DNA from: Endomicrobium sp.
GTDB lineage: Bacteria > Elusimicrobiota > Endomicrobiia > Endomicrobiales > Endomicrobiaceae
Reading direction: 5' to 3'
DNA: 64,000 bases
Assembly (NCBI GenBank): GCA_031266535.1
Contig: JAISAS010000004.1
Span: 192,531-256,530 of the forward strand
In this document: positions 4,946-63,533 of the stretch, in pieces
Numbering within the stretch: the stretch's first letter is position 1
How the letters are laid out: each line of letters opens with the position of its first letter
Made by a program: the position numbers and the translations under genes
The notes under the pieces: model-generated
Told to the model about the DNA's origin: nothing
Databases searched by the model: none
Seen by the model: the letters and a program-made list of their open reading frames with translations, nothing else

Positions 4946-5290
4946 ATGATAATCATACCAGCTATCGATATATACAGGAAAATTCTGTAGAATTAAAACA
5001 ATGCAGAATTGATACTGAAACTATTTATTCTACAAATTCGGTATTTATAGCTAAACTTTGTAAAGTAAAAGGTGCACAGTATCGTATACATGTTTATAGA
5101 TTTAGATAATACTTTGGATGGACATGCAAAAATTATAGTTACAAATGTAACCTCAGTTAGTATTTTAAAACATGTAAATGAGCCTAAAGATAGGTGCTCA
5201 AGAAATTTTGTATATCAATATATAAAGATATGAAATATCTATTAAGCTGATTTTATTGGACTAAAAAATTGTTCAAAATAAAAATAAGAA
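4946..5290 (+). pseudogene. hisA: hisA remnant (phosphoribosylformimino-AICAR ribotide isomerase), frameshifted and internally deleted
   Basis: ATG with upstream [17 protein letters not shown], then shifted frame [41 protein letters not shown], later GAQEILYINIYKDM; matches HisA consensus segments. Confidence 0.85.
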
Positions 5291-6475: not shown

Positions 6476-7279
6476 ATGAAAATAGTATCTGAAAATAGAT
6501 CTGAAAAGAAAGGTTTTCCAGCTGGTATTTGGACAAAATGCAAAAAATGTGACGAAATCTTTCTACAAAAAGATTTTGAAGAAAACTTTATGGTATGCCT
6601 TAAATGTGGTTATTATACAAGACTCAGTGCATATCAAAGAATCGAATTTACAGTAGATAAAAAAAGTTTTAAAGAAATAAACGCAGATATTAACAGCATC
6701 AATTTTTTAAATTTTCCTGGTTATTCTGATAAAATTGAAAATTCAAAAATAAATGAAGCTATAATTACAGGAGAAGCAAAAATTAATGGATTCAATGTTA
6801 TAATAGCAGTTATGGATTTTGAATTTATGGGTGGAAGCATGGGATCTGTAGTTGGTGAAAAAATAGTAAGAGCTGTAGAAAAAGCAATTAAAAAAAAATA
6901 TCATTTAATTATCATTTCAGCATCAGGTGGAGCAAGAATGCAAGAAGGAACAATGTCTCTTATGCAAATGGCTAAAACAAGCGCTTCCATTGCAAAACTT
7001 GCCGATAGTAAACTTGCTTATATTTCAATATTAACAGATCCTACAACTGGTGGTGTAGCAGCAAGTTTTGCTATGCTTGGTGATATAAATATTGCAGAAC
7101 CTAAAGCTTTAATAGGTTTTGCAGGCCCAAGAGTTATTGAACAAACAATAAAACAAAAACTTCCAGAAGGATTCCAACTTTCAGAATTTTTAGAAAAACA
7201 TGGAATGATTGATATTATCGCTGAAAGAAAAAATATGAAAGATATTTTAACTAAAATATTGAGATTTTTTAGTAAATAA
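6476..7279 (+). CDS. accD: acetyl-CoA carboxylase carboxyltransferase subunit beta
   Basis: zinc-finger CKKC...[37 protein letters not shown]. Confidence 0.95.
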
Positions 7280-7282
7280 ATA

Positions 7283-8537
7283 ATGTTTTATAAAAATTTG
7301 AAAGAATATGAAGGGATGAACTCAGGACTTTCAAGAATAAAAAAATTTCTTAAAAGTGTGAATAATCCTCAGACCAACATAAAGATAATACATATAACTG
7401 GCACTAATGGAAAAGAATCAACAGTTGCCTTTATATCAGAAATTTTAATAACAAATGGATATAAAACTACTTTATATACTTCTCCTCATATAGTTAATAT
7501 CACTGAAAGAATTAAAATCAATAATAAGAACATATCTTTAAAAGATTTTACAAATTTATCAAAAAAATACTTTAATAAAATCACGAAATATAAACTTTCA
7601 TATTTTGAATACTTAACCGCACTAGTTTTTATATATTTTACGAAACATAAAGTTGATATTACAATAATAGAAACTGAGCTTGTTGTAGGACGTTTTGATA
7701 CAACAAATGTCATAAAAAACCTTTTAATATGTGTAATAACATCAATTACAATAGAACATCAGGAAATATTAGGTAATAGTATCACAAAAATAGCTTCTGA
7801 AAAATTTGGAATAATAAAAAGAGGAACTTGTATCGTTTGTGGATATATCTCCAAAAAAGCAATTAGTATAATTAAAAATAAATCAAATTTCTATATTTAT
7901 GGAAAAGATTTTAAGGCAATAAATAATAAGTTAGGCAACAACCAAAAATTTGACTATATAAATAAAAATATGAAACTATGTACATCTCTTTTTGGTAAAC
8001 ATCAATTGATGAACGCTTCAGTTGCCATTTTTGTTGCAAACATTTTAAGTAAAATGGGCTACTATTTATATAAGACTAATATAAAAAAAGGTTTGAAAAA
8101 TACTATTTGGCATGGAAGATTTGATATAAGAAAAGTTATTAATAATTCAAAAAATTTTAAATTAATTCTATATGGTGCTCATATACATGGATTAAATGCA
8201 TTTTTTGAGATGTTTAACCAATTAGGATTTTCAAAAACAAAACAAGTTTTTATTTTTGCTGTTATGAAAGAAAAAAAATATAAATACATAATTAAAAAAA
8301 TAGTTCCTTACACAAAAAAAATAATATTACCTAAAATAAATAATGAAAGAGCAGTGAATCCTGAAATTCTAAAATTTGAGATTTTGTACTATACTACTGT
8401 AAAAAGTAAAATTTATATTGTAAATTCGATAAAAATGCTTCAGATATATTAATGGTGAAATCGCAATAACAATAGACTCTCTTTATCTTGTGGGAGAAAT
8501 TTTAAAATATCTTTTTTCTCAAAATACAAAAAAATGA
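7283..8537 (+). pseudogene. folC: folC-like folylpolyglutamate/dihydrofolate synthase, probable pseudogene
   Basis: ORF 7283-8452 shows FolC family but GTNGKES, YGAHIHG and loss of C-terminus; remaining C-terminus NGEIAITIDSLYLVGEILKYLF found in another frame at 8451-8537. Confidence 0.75.
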
Positions 8538-8614: not shown

Positions 8615-10567
8615 ATGAATAAATCGTACAAATTTACTATTTTTATTTTGATACTTTTTGCTATCAAAGCTTTCGCTCATAAAATTGATATAGTTGCAGA
8701 TAATTTAGAATATGATGATTTATATAGTAAACTTGATGCAAAAGGACATGTTGTTCTTTATTGGAAGAATATAAAATTACATGCCGATCATGTAGAACTT
8801 TTTATAGATAAAAAAATTCTTAATAGTGACGGTAATATTAAATTCGAAGAATCTAAAAATACAATTTATGCAAACAGATTAACATACAATTATAAAACAG
8901 AAAGTGGTAATATAGAAGAAACTTTTTCTTATTTACATCCTATATTTATTCGTGCATGTTCTATGGAAAAATTAAATAAAGATACATATTTGATTAAAAA
9001 TATAAAACTTTCAAATTGTGATTTAAATAATCCTCATGTATATTTTAAAGCAAAACGAGGAAAAATTAGTATGAATAAAAGAGTAACCCTTTATTGGCCA
9101 TTTTTTTATATTGGAAAAGTTCCAATATTTTTTTCACCAATAATTACAAAATCGCTTAAAAATAAAAAATCTTTTGCTTCAGATTTTGAAATTACAATTG
9201 AACCAAGCTATACAAATAATGAGGGTATATCTTTAAAAACTAAAATTTTATCACCATTAAATAAATATTCAACAGCTGGAGTTAAATATGATTATTTAGG
9301 AATTAGAGGACATGGTTATGGGGGAAATATTAAATACTTAAATAAAAATAAAAAATTAGACATTGATATATATACAATTAATGATTTAATTGAAAAAAGA
9401 AAAAGATGGAAGCTGAATACTTATTATGAACAAAAAATAAATAAATGGGAAGTAAAATCTGAGATAAAATTTATGAGTGACAAAGATTTTAATACTCATT
9501 TCGATAAAAATAACAAAAATATTGAAAATATCTTAAGATCTTATGCATATTTAATAAAGCAAGGGAAGAATACAGCTTTAGAAATATATGCTAAACGCTT
9601 CGATAAATATAATAAATTTAATAAAAATTATGAAATATTGTCTTCAGATATACCAATTATAAAATTCACATATTTTCCAAAAAGTATTTTATTTAATATA
9701 ACACATGATTTTATTTTTAAATATAAATATAACAATAATTATGAAGAACATACTCATACAAACATAAGTTCTTTAAATTATGGTTTAAAAAAAGCTTTTA
9801 CTTTAGGAAAATTCACATTAAAACCAAATTTTATAATAACTAAAAATTTATATGATAAAAATAAATTAAATAATAAAAGAAATATTTTTATAACAAAATA
9901 TTCAAACTCTTTAAATTTAAGATACAGAGCTACAAATTGGATAGATTGTGACATAAATTATTTGTTAAGAACTAGAACTAAGGAAAATTCCTTATATATA
10001 GATAGATTTGCAGAAGATCATGGGATAGAAATAAATAAATTTTTCTTTAAAAATTTTATGTATATTGGAAGCAAAGCCATAATCATAACCGATTTTTCGT
10101 ATAATTTTAATTCTCAACAACATAAGAATAATCAAAAAAAAGGAATATACATGCCACTTAAATCTGAAATAATATGGACCCCAAAACATTACTTTACAAC
10201 AAATATAACACAGACACACTTATTAAATCCTTTTCAATGTCAAAATTTAAACTTAGATTTAAAGATAGGAGATAGTGAAAAAATTTATTTAGAACTTGGA
10301 ATTTTTTACAAAAAACATAAACCAATAAATAATATTTTTGGTTTTGGTATATGGCTTACTCCAAAATGGAAATTTGATTATTACGCAACAGCAAATAATG
10401 AACATAAAATAAAACTATATAGAGACAGCCACTGTTATAATCTAAATATAGGATATAACATAAAGAAAAAAAAACACGAAGAATTCTTAAAATTTGATAT
10501 TAAAACAAATATGTCTTTTAACAAAAAAAATGAAAAATTTAATAATGATAAAAATTCATTCTATTAA
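8615..10567 (+). CDS. lptD: LptD/OstA-like outer-membrane LPS assembly protein
   Basis: signal peptide, N-terminal OstA domain (IVADNLEYDDLYSKLDAKGHVVLYWKNIKLHADHVEL), then beta-rich C-terminal part. Confidence 0.8.
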   Translation: MNKSYKFTIFILILFAIKAFAHKIDIVADNLEYDDLYSKLDAKGHVVLYWKNIKLHADHVELFIDKKILNSDGNIKFEESKNTIYANRLTYNYKTESGNIEETFSYLHPIFIRACSMEKLNKDTYLIKNIKLSNCDLNNPHVYFKAKRGKISMNKRVTLYWPFFYIGKVPIFFSPIITKSLKNKKSFASDFEITIEPSYTNNEGISLKTKILSPLNKYSTAGVKYDYLGIRGHGYGGNIKYLNKNKKLDIDIYTINDLIEKRKRWKLNTYYEQKINKWEVKSEIKFMSDKDFNTHFDKNNKNIENILRSYAYLIKQGKNTALEIYAKRFDKYNKFNKNYEILSSDIPIIKFTYFPKSILFNITHDFIFKYKYNNNYEEHTHTNISSLNYGLKKAFTLGKFTLKPNFIITKNLYDKNKLNNKRNIFITKYSNSLNLRYRATNWIDCDINYLLRTRTKENSLYIDRFAEDHGIEINKFFFKNFMYIGSKAIIITDFSYNFNSQQHKNNQKKGIYMPLKSEIIWTPKHYFTTNITQTHLLNPFQCQNLNLDLKIGDSEKIYLELGIFYKKHKPINNIFGFGIWLTPKWKFDYYATANNEHKIKLYRDSHCYNLNIGYNIKKKKHEEFLKFDIKTNMSFNKKNEKFNNDKNSFY

Positions 10568-12427: not shown

Positions 12428-13315
12428 TTACATATTCCTATTATTAAATGCTTTAAGCGTATTTTCTAAAAGCATTGCTATAGTCATAGGGCCTACTCCT
12501 CCAGGCACATGTGTTATTTTTATATTCATATTTTTAACAGCATCAAAATCAACATCACCACATAATTTACTTACTACTCTATTTATACCTACATCAATAA
12601 CAGTAGCACCATCTTTAATAAAATCTCCATTTATGAATTTAGGTTTACCTATAGCTACAATAAGAATTTCTGCAGATTTACATATTTCTTTAAGATTTTT
12701 AGTTTTTGAATGACAAATTATAACTGTGGCATTATTGGCAAGCAAAAGCATTGAAAGAGGCTTACCCACAAGATTTGATCTTCCAATAATAACAACAATT
12801 TTACCATCAATTTCAATATTAGAATGCTTTAATAGATATATCACCCCAAGAGGAGTACAAGAAATAAGAATGTTTTTTTTAATTATTTCATCCCAATTTT
12901 TTGATAAATTTAAAAGTCCTGCATTAGTAGGATGAAGCCCATCAACATCTTTTGAAGGACAAATTGCGTTAATACATTTTTGCGTATAATTGCTTTTCGG
13001 AAGTGGCAATTGTAATAAAATACCATCAATATTAGAATCGTTATTTAAATTTTTTATTAAAGCAATAATATTTTTTTGAGATGAATTTTTATCAAGATTA
13101 ATATGAAAAGATTTTATTCCAACACGTTTACAAGCTTGCATTTTTAATTTTATATAAATTTGACTTGCAGGATTATTTCCCACAAGAATTGTCATAAGAC
13201 TTGGAACAATTCCTCTACTATTTTTTATTTCATCAATTCTTTTTTTAATTTCGGCTATTTTATTATTAGAAATTTTTATACCATCAATAAGTTCCACTTT
13301 TATTACTCCATACAA
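12428..13315 (-). CDS. folD: methylenetetrahydrofolate dehydrogenase/cyclohydrolase
   Basis: LLQLPLP, PSKDVDGLHP, GRSNLVGKPL, PGGVGPMT. Confidence 0.96.
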   Translation of the reverse strand: MYGVIKVELIDGIKISNNKIAEIKKRIDEIKNSRGIVPSLMTILVGNNPASQIYIKLKMQACKRVGIKSFHINLDKNSSQKNIIALIKNLNNDSNIDGILLQLPLPKSNYTQKCINAICPSKDVDGLHPTNAGLLNLSKNWDEIIKKNILISCTPLGVIYLLKHSNIEIDGKIVVIIGRSNLVGKPLSMLLLANNATVIICHSKTKNLKEICKSAEILIVAIGKPKFINGDFIKDGATVIDVGINRVVSKLCGDVDFDAVKNMNIKITHVPGGVGPMTIAMLLENTLKAFNNRNM

Positions 13316-20557: not shown

Positions 20558-21142
20558 TTAAATACATATAATCCTTTTTTCAGTAATGACGGAACCAACA
20601 GGAATATCATATTTTTCATTTGGAAGTTTATCTATTACCTGAAAATCATAAGCAAGTCCTATAGTTTTTTTATGCGACTTACTAAGCCACATATCATAAC
20701 ACCCTTTACCATACCCTATCCTATAACCTCGAATGTCAAAAATAAGTCCAGGTACAAAAATTAAATCAATATTATCCTGTTCTATAACATTACTCATAAT
20801 TATTTCAGGTTGCCTTATACCATAAATAAACTGAGAAGCATCTGAGAGCTGAGAAATCTTTACAGCATACATTTTCATATATTCAAAATTAGAAAATTTT
20901 AAAGCTGGTACAGCAACAGTTTTTCCTTCACTAATAGCAGAATTTATCATATTATCTGTAATAACCTCAGACCCACAGGATATATAAAACATAACAATTT
21001 TAGCTTCATTATAAATTTGAATATTTTGAATTTTAGTAAAAATATTAACACTACTAACTAAAGCCACATTTGGCATTATTTTATTTCTTAAAATTAAAAA
21101 TTTATATCTTATTTTCCTTTTTTCCGATTTTAAATCATCCAT
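20558..21142 (-). CDS. 5-formyltetrahydrofolate cyclo-ligase
   Basis: FVPGLIFDIRGYRIGYGKGCYD motif. Confidence 0.92.
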   Translation of the reverse strand: MDDLKSEKRKIRYKFLILRNKIMPNVALVSSVNIFTKIQNIQIYNEAKIVMFYISCGSEVITDNMINSAISEGKTVAVPALKFSNFEYMKMYAVKISQLSDASQFIYGIRQPEIIMSNVIEQDNIDLIFVPGLIFDIRGYRIGYGKGCYDMWLSKSHKKTIGLAYDFQVIDKLPNEKYDIPVGSVITEKRIICI

Positions 21143-62253: not shown

Positions 62254-63533
62254 TTATTCATCTTTCATAGCACAAAAATTCCCACACATTGTACATACAT
62301 CTTCTTGTTGTGATAATAATTTAGATCTTTCTTTCATAAATTTTATTTGATCTATACAATATTCTTTTTGTTTTTCCCAATTCCTCAATTTACGCCACTT
62401 AGACATTTCGTTATCACGTTCCTTAGCACCCTAATACCTTTAACAATATCAGCAGCATGTCCAGCTATTCTCGCAGAAATAACACCCTCATGAACATCTT
62501 GAATATCAGGAAGTCTCAAATGTTCTGCAAGGCGTAACATAACATATAAAATCAACCCCATAAATGGTCGCTAATACGCTTCCAATTGCAGCTGTTATAT
62601 GGGTTCCATAAACCTGGAGCTATATCAGTTATAAGTGGCCCTAAAAAATATAAAGGAACATCGTAACCTAATCTCTTTGCAATAATTACATTTGCTTCAA
62701 TCTGATTTATAGAGATATGACCTGGTCCCTCTATCATTATAGATTGAACACCCATTTTTCTTGCTTTTAAACAAGTTCTCTCACCCAAAACTGAAAGCTC
62801 AGCAAATTGAGAAGCATCTTGAAGCATCAAAAAAACAACCTGGTCTAAAACCATCCCCTAAGCTCAGTATAACATTGTACCTTTTAGCTATTCTTAGAAG
62901 TCTATCAAAATTTTCAAATAGAGGATTTTCTTTTCCTGTGGCATTTATACATTTAACCGAGAAAGATCCTCCTCTACTTACATACAATGCCTGCAAGACG
63001 TCCATGACGCCTTAATATTTCCACATTTGCCTTATTAACCACACAGTGAATAGTCATAAAATCTACACCTTGTTGAGCCTGTTCCTCTATTATGTCAAAT
63101 AATAATTCCTCATCAATTTCAAATATTTTTTTACCTTTGGCAACAGCTCTACATGCAGCCTCATAAATAGGCACAGTACCTACCTGAACAGAAGAAGCTG
63201 CAAGAATTTCTTTTCTTATATGAGTTAAATCACCTCCAGTAGATAGATCCATTACAGCATCAGCACCAGCTTTAACAGCAACATCAAGTTTAGCAAGTTC
63301 TTCAGCAATATCAATATGATCAGGAGAAGTCCCAATATTAGCATTAACTTTTGTTCTCAATCCTTTTCCAATACCAACAATTTTTTCAAATTTTCTATTA
63401 ATATTTTTCGGAATCACAATTGTGCCTGAAACAATTCCATTTCTTATAAATTCTTCATTTAAATTTTCGATCCGTGCAATACTGCTTATTAAATTATTAT
63501 TTTTTTATTTTGAGCATCTTCCATCAATCCCAT
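62254..63533 (-). pseudogene. thiC: thiC (HMP-P synthase) pseudogene, multiple frameshifts
   Basis: ThiC segments spread over different frames: NEEFIRNGIVSGTIVIPKNINRK, TKVNANIGTSPDHIDIAEEL...[44 protein letters not shown]-terminal CTMCGNFCAMK. Confidence 0.93.

Follow-up and report, generated by a model that had tools for sequence, protein, structure and literature searches.

An open folC frame with lost catalytic motifs in a reduced Endomicrobium genome, very probably a recent pseudogene

The window, by which we mean the whole analysed stretch of 64,000 nucleotides, comes from a reduced, AT-rich genome of the Endomicrobium type (Elusimicrobiota). Members of this genus are described as endosymbionts of termite-gut flagellates (PMC11257099), and the genome presumably belongs to such a flagellate endosymbiont. 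On the forward strand it carries the gene series kdsD-accD-folC, in which folC, the gene of the bifunctional dihydrofolate/folylpolyglutamate synthase, is present as a residual ORF of 389 amino acids (7283-8452, forward strand) downstream of an intact accD (6476-7279, forward strand). Beside folC lies an ORF of 650 amino acids (8615-10567, forward strand) that has orthologues in the relatives and gives weak LptD_N and LptC matches, although according to PMC11257099 all Endomicrobiaceae lack LptD.

The folC ORF scores 265 bits with the family model TIGR01499 (cut-off 162.65) and thus belongs to the FolC family. It is homologous over residues 12-364 to enzymes such as those of E. coli (1W78), L. 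casei (FPGS, 1FGS) and T. maritima (1O5Z), and is 66-68% identical to its nearest relative. With these enzymes it shares the lysine and serine of the P-loop and the lysine of the EKxGIIK motif, which reads EKFGIIK (7799-7819, forward strand); this lysine we take to be the residue that is carbamylated in Mur-type ligases, and the residues that we assume to be the Mg-binding glutamate and histidine are retained as well. In contrast to them, it lacks the P-loop glycine, the GLGG loop, the aspartate and asparagine of DGAHN, and the C-terminal strand.

These losses are of differing kinds, and all coordinates given below are on the forward strand. In the P-loop (7400-7420), GTNGKGS is replaced by GTNGKES, a change of glycine to glutamate at residue 45, at a position that is glycine in all relatives and that corresponds in the alignment to Gly51 of L. 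casei FPGS. The glycine loop (7670-7708), ETGL-GGRFDATN in the relatives, reads ETELVVGRFDTTN; one codon has been inserted at about 7684, and the pattern E-x-GLGG-x-x-D-A-x-N is no longer present. At the DGAHN site (8171-8191) the ORF reads YGAHIHG, aligned as YGAH-IHG, in which the asparagine is deleted and tyrosine takes the place of the aspartate, whose aligned counterpart in L. casei FPGS is residue 313. Further length changes are a 9-base deletion of three codons near 7981 (within 7978-7990), ahead of the (L)LGKHQ motif, 3-base gaps near 7938, in a variable loop, and near 8178, and three additional bases near 8398. Between 8432 and 8451 the frame is finally lost, as seen from alignment gaps not divisible by three and from a change of the tblastn frame from +2 to +3, and the ORF terminates early. 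The missing C-terminus, with its GSLYL(A/V)GE strand and the accompanying helix, is encoded out of frame only, as the remnant NGEIAITIDSLYLVGEILKYLF (8436-8537), of which the tblastn match begins at about 8436 or 8451, ends at 8513 and is identical to the FolC of one relative (L005) at 14 of 21 positions. Rescue of the frame by polymerase slippage is unlikely, because the longest single-base run at the break comprises only five A. The open frame, the two altered motifs and the displaced C-terminus had already been described in a sequence-only reading of this DNA, the coordinates of which proved correct throughout.

That reading had also named what would speak against a dead gene, namely relatives with the same residues, and no complete folC of the genus has the P-loop, glycine-loop or DGAHN lesions. 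Among the 41 genomes searched, folC was detected in 21 of the 24 other members of the genus and, without exception, in the 16 that represent the order and class; completeness is 34, 66 and 52% in the three same-genus genomes in which it was not detected. Wherever the respective site is covered, the relatives have GTNGKGS or GSNGKGS in the P-loop, a GLGG-type glycine loop (GVGG in one) that is free of an inserted residue, and Asp-Gly-Ala/Ser/Val-His-Asn at the C-terminal motif. Their FolC proteins extend for about 30 more residues at the C-terminus, including a strand of the (L/F)Y(L/F) type. One relative has its folC in two overlapping ORFs of 112 and 343 amino acids (L025/L036, on G011:C136), which may be damaged or misassembled. 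The smallest same-genus assembly (G021; about 200 kb in 4 contigs, 66% complete) contains folK, folP and a MetH-like ORF, and folC was not detected in it.

The extent of the damage was quantified by leaving out each taxon in turn and counting how many of the columns without variation among the remaining 22 genus members it breaks. The folC of the window breaks 17 of 84 such columns and the other taxa 0-5; five of the 17 stem from the lost C-terminus and two are possibly alignment effects of the inserted codon. For the columns invariant across the order, the count is 10 of 49, and the other taxa break 0-3. Of the neighbouring genes in the genome of the window, accD breaks 1 of 87 columns and kdsD 8 of 130; the comparison was confined to these two, as conserved synteny is too short beyond them. 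Compared to its closest relative, the genome evolves about 1.6 times faster overall. Among 19 genes the folC ratio of 1.98 is no outlier, although none of the others reaches its absolute rate of unique changes (0.145). The base composition has shifted as well: G+C at the first codon position (GC1) is 0.267, compared to 0.389 in the closest relative, and relative to the orthologue in G001 it has changed by -0.121 (genome mean -0.025, SD 0.029), a shift exceeded by only one among 261 genes.

It might be argued that folC is intact and that the frameshift and some of the substitutions are artefacts of sequencing or assembly, as the genome is a draft assembly that is only 53% complete. However, many independent lesions of differing kinds fall on invariant sites, the first codon positions have moved towards AT, accD and folD stand intact alongside, and other genes of the genome are also found as remnants in several frames. 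Catalytic motifs are no preferred targets of sequencing errors, and we regard this explanation as exceedingly improbable.

The sequence-only reading had proposed a dN/dS comparison with relatives, and this gave a divided answer. Under a plain codon branch model, omega is 0.105 on the branch of the window and 0.081 elsewhere, which is no significant difference, and omega = 1 across the entire branch is rejected, so that folC is constrained during most of its separate history. A codon mixture of three site classes, in which one branch may end in an unconstrained, neutral phase, in contrast assigned such a phase of 0.106 substitutions per codon to the window branch (2dlnL 5.26, p about 0.011) and of about zero to each of four control branches; all of these selection figures are rough, given saturated dS and a base composition that is not stationary. 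Over 389 codons, a neutral phase of this length is expected to yield only 1.1-2.4 stops, with a probability of 0.09-0.33 that none occurs, and the absence of stops is therefore unsurprising; the open frame is compatible with a recent pseudogene. The internal indels point in the other direction. All five are multiples of three, for which the chance (at least five of about seven) is about 0.01-0.05, and this hints that the frame was maintained while some of the lesions arose; it is the sole sign of this kind. Taken as a case against a recent pseudogene, these in-frame indels stand beside the unremarkable rate ratio of folC and the plain branch omega, which does not separate the window from the other branches and excludes omega = 1, at saturated dS. 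In favour of one, the lesions are absent from functional relatives, and relaxed selection is indicated by the mixture model and by GC1, although not by the simple branch omega.

If translated, the ORF is very unlikely to give an active enzyme, as judged from the residues that it has lost. The product is predicted to be inactive because the P-loop glycine, the glycine loop, the aspartate and asparagine of DGAHN and the last C-terminal strand are all gone. One could nevertheless imagine a divergent but working FolC that tolerates altered motifs and dispenses with its C-terminal end, and the long open frame, the in-frame internal indels, the branch omega of 0.105 and the retained lysine and serine of the P-loop, lysine of EKxGIIK and presumed Mg-binding residues would be in line with it. 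Against this, L. casei FPGS loses its activity when Gly51, the same P-loop position, is changed to serine (Smith and colleagues 2006, ref. 114 of PMC4790348). Moreover, the DGAHN residues have been lost along with the glycine loop, the GSLYL strand is no longer part of the ORF, and the relatives share none of these changes, which makes a working enzyme a very improbable explanation. Loss of FolC would halt not only folate polyglutamylation but also the dihydrofolate synthase step. For polyglutamylation the sequence-only reading had offered loss, supply by the host or takeover by another enzyme, any of which may apply.

A protein without catalytic function could in principle be kept for some other role, and the absence of stop codons and the in-frame indels would fit with this. 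But the end of the C-terminal fold has been frameshifted away, and the signal of relaxed selection fits a recent pseudogene that needs no such role, so that retention of the product in this form is the most remote of the explanations that we consider. In a related scenario, which we also hold to be very doubtful, the motifs would have been lost while the frame was still selected, an inactive FolC-like protein being kept for a while in a role other than glutamylation, and imported host folates would feed GlyA, Gcv, FolD, Fmt and MetH without a FolC of the symbiont's own.

A second FolC had been suggested as a point to check, and the answer reaches as far as the assembly does. In the 395 kb available the window folC is the sole FolC, the two other matches both lying in a single Mur-ligase-type ORF of 520 amino acids that scores under the family cut-off; the assembly is just 53% complete. 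The window folC would be a dead, redundant copy if another FolC, or a ligase unrelated to it, had taken over elsewhere in the genome, half of which may be unassembled. There is a precedent in the chlamydiae, which have substituted the CofE-type FolC2 (COG1478) for FolC (PMC1971073), a known route to folC loss. However, no ligase of the CofE/FolC2 type was found in the genome assembly or in six relatives, and each relative has one folC (split in one of them). We therefore think that such a replacement is unlikely.

The folates themselves still appear to be used, and this is a point that can be held against the loss of folC. As the sequence-only reading had stated, the window contains intact genes for FolD (12428-13315, reverse strand; PF00763, PF02882 and the NCBIfam FolD models) and 5-formyltetrahydrofolate cyclo-ligase (20558-21142, reverse strand; PF01812, 125.5 bits). 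GlyA, Fmt and a MetH-like ORF of 801 amino acids are apparently intact as well, and genes that we take to encode GcvH, GcvPA and GcvPB are retained. The genes folK, folP and folE were not found in the 395-kb, 53% complete assembly, but a block of about 35 kb that surrounds them in a relative (G001:C2, about 120-155 kb) has nearly no match there. The missing block also includes what we take to be rpsF, rpsR, rplI, dnaB, uvrA, tilS and ftsH. As essential ribosomal genes are missing together with folK and folP, a loss of the pathway was rejected as the reading of their absence; with the surrounding block unassembled, nothing can be concluded from the failure to find folK, folP and folE. The same holds for dihydrofolate reductase (PF00186), which was found in none of 12 same-genus genomes tested and was rejected as evidence for this genome. 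ECF S-component and BT1 folate transporters were not found in the 53% complete assembly. Mycoplasma species and Borrelia use folate without folC, and salvage has been proposed for them (PMC1971073). The present genome resembles them in its folate-dependent enzymes and its presumed lack of a functional FolC, but it differs in having a recognisable folC remnant and in that the remaining pathway is unreadable from a half-complete assembly.

The decay of folC does not stand alone. A survey in which 263 proteins of the relative G001 were compared with the assembly revealed broken purF, purL, thiC, hisA and polA genes elsewhere in the genome. purF is distributed over two frames and fragments of purL over three (G000:C3:150368-151634 and 105952-106750), and purC and purQ close to them are still open. 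thiC lies within the window as fragments in three frames (62260-63533, reverse strand), and thiamine synthesis has probably been lost. Directly 5' of kdsD-accD-folC, a hisA remnant of 40 residues (4975-5094, forward strand; PF00977 in the intact relative) is all that remains of the his genes at a place where G001 has hisI-F-A-H-B-D. polA is reduced to its first 280 residues, the 5'-3' exonuclease part of DNA polymerase I, and the polymerase domain is missing (G000:C3:144908-145744). The hisS ORF (G000:C3:65740-66972) encodes 415 amino acids as compared to 570 in G001 and lacks, in frame, about residues 359-461 of the relative. folC thus adjoins a collapsed operon in a genome that is losing purine, thiamine and histidine synthesis, which the sequence-only reading had not reported and which supplies an ordinary context for the loss of folC. 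In its reduced, AT-rich genome and its decaying biosynthetic genes it is like the Endomicrobium flagellate symbionts, for which 10-37 pseudogenes per genome are reported in PMC8809381 and gene losses are reviewed in PMC11257099. It differs from them in that a loss of folC is not mentioned in the text passages of these two papers that we consulted.

Taken together, the case is ordinary in kind, that of a recent pseudogene of a reduced symbiont genome. The claim of the sequence-only reading that folC is dead, with its catalytic motifs destroyed, is supported by the motif and frame lesions, by their absence from relatives and by the signal of relaxed selection, and we consider it very probable that folC was recently inactivated in a reduced, AT-rich genome that is still shedding genes. 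We infer the order of events as follows. Selection on folC would have ended late on the lineage of the window, after which the gene would have gained missense changes at invariant sites, small indels and, as the last step, the frameshift by which the C-terminal domain lost its end. It would still look like an ORF since the substitutions were too few to make a stop codon likely, and its product, if made, would be inactive. The folate is probably taken from the host, which is the source that we prefer, and the breakage of purF and purL, with which purine synthesis de novo is decaying, may have lowered the need for formyl-folates and with it the demand for folate.

The folC of the window scores about 100 bits above the FolC cut-off, and annotation pipelines would report it as intact despite its lost active site. 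As a gene without its active site passes the family cut-off in this way, pathway tables of eroding symbionts may overstate biosynthetic capacity. A complete genome would permit asking whether the symbiont sustains its glycine-cleavage and formyl-methionine chemistry on the folates of its host.
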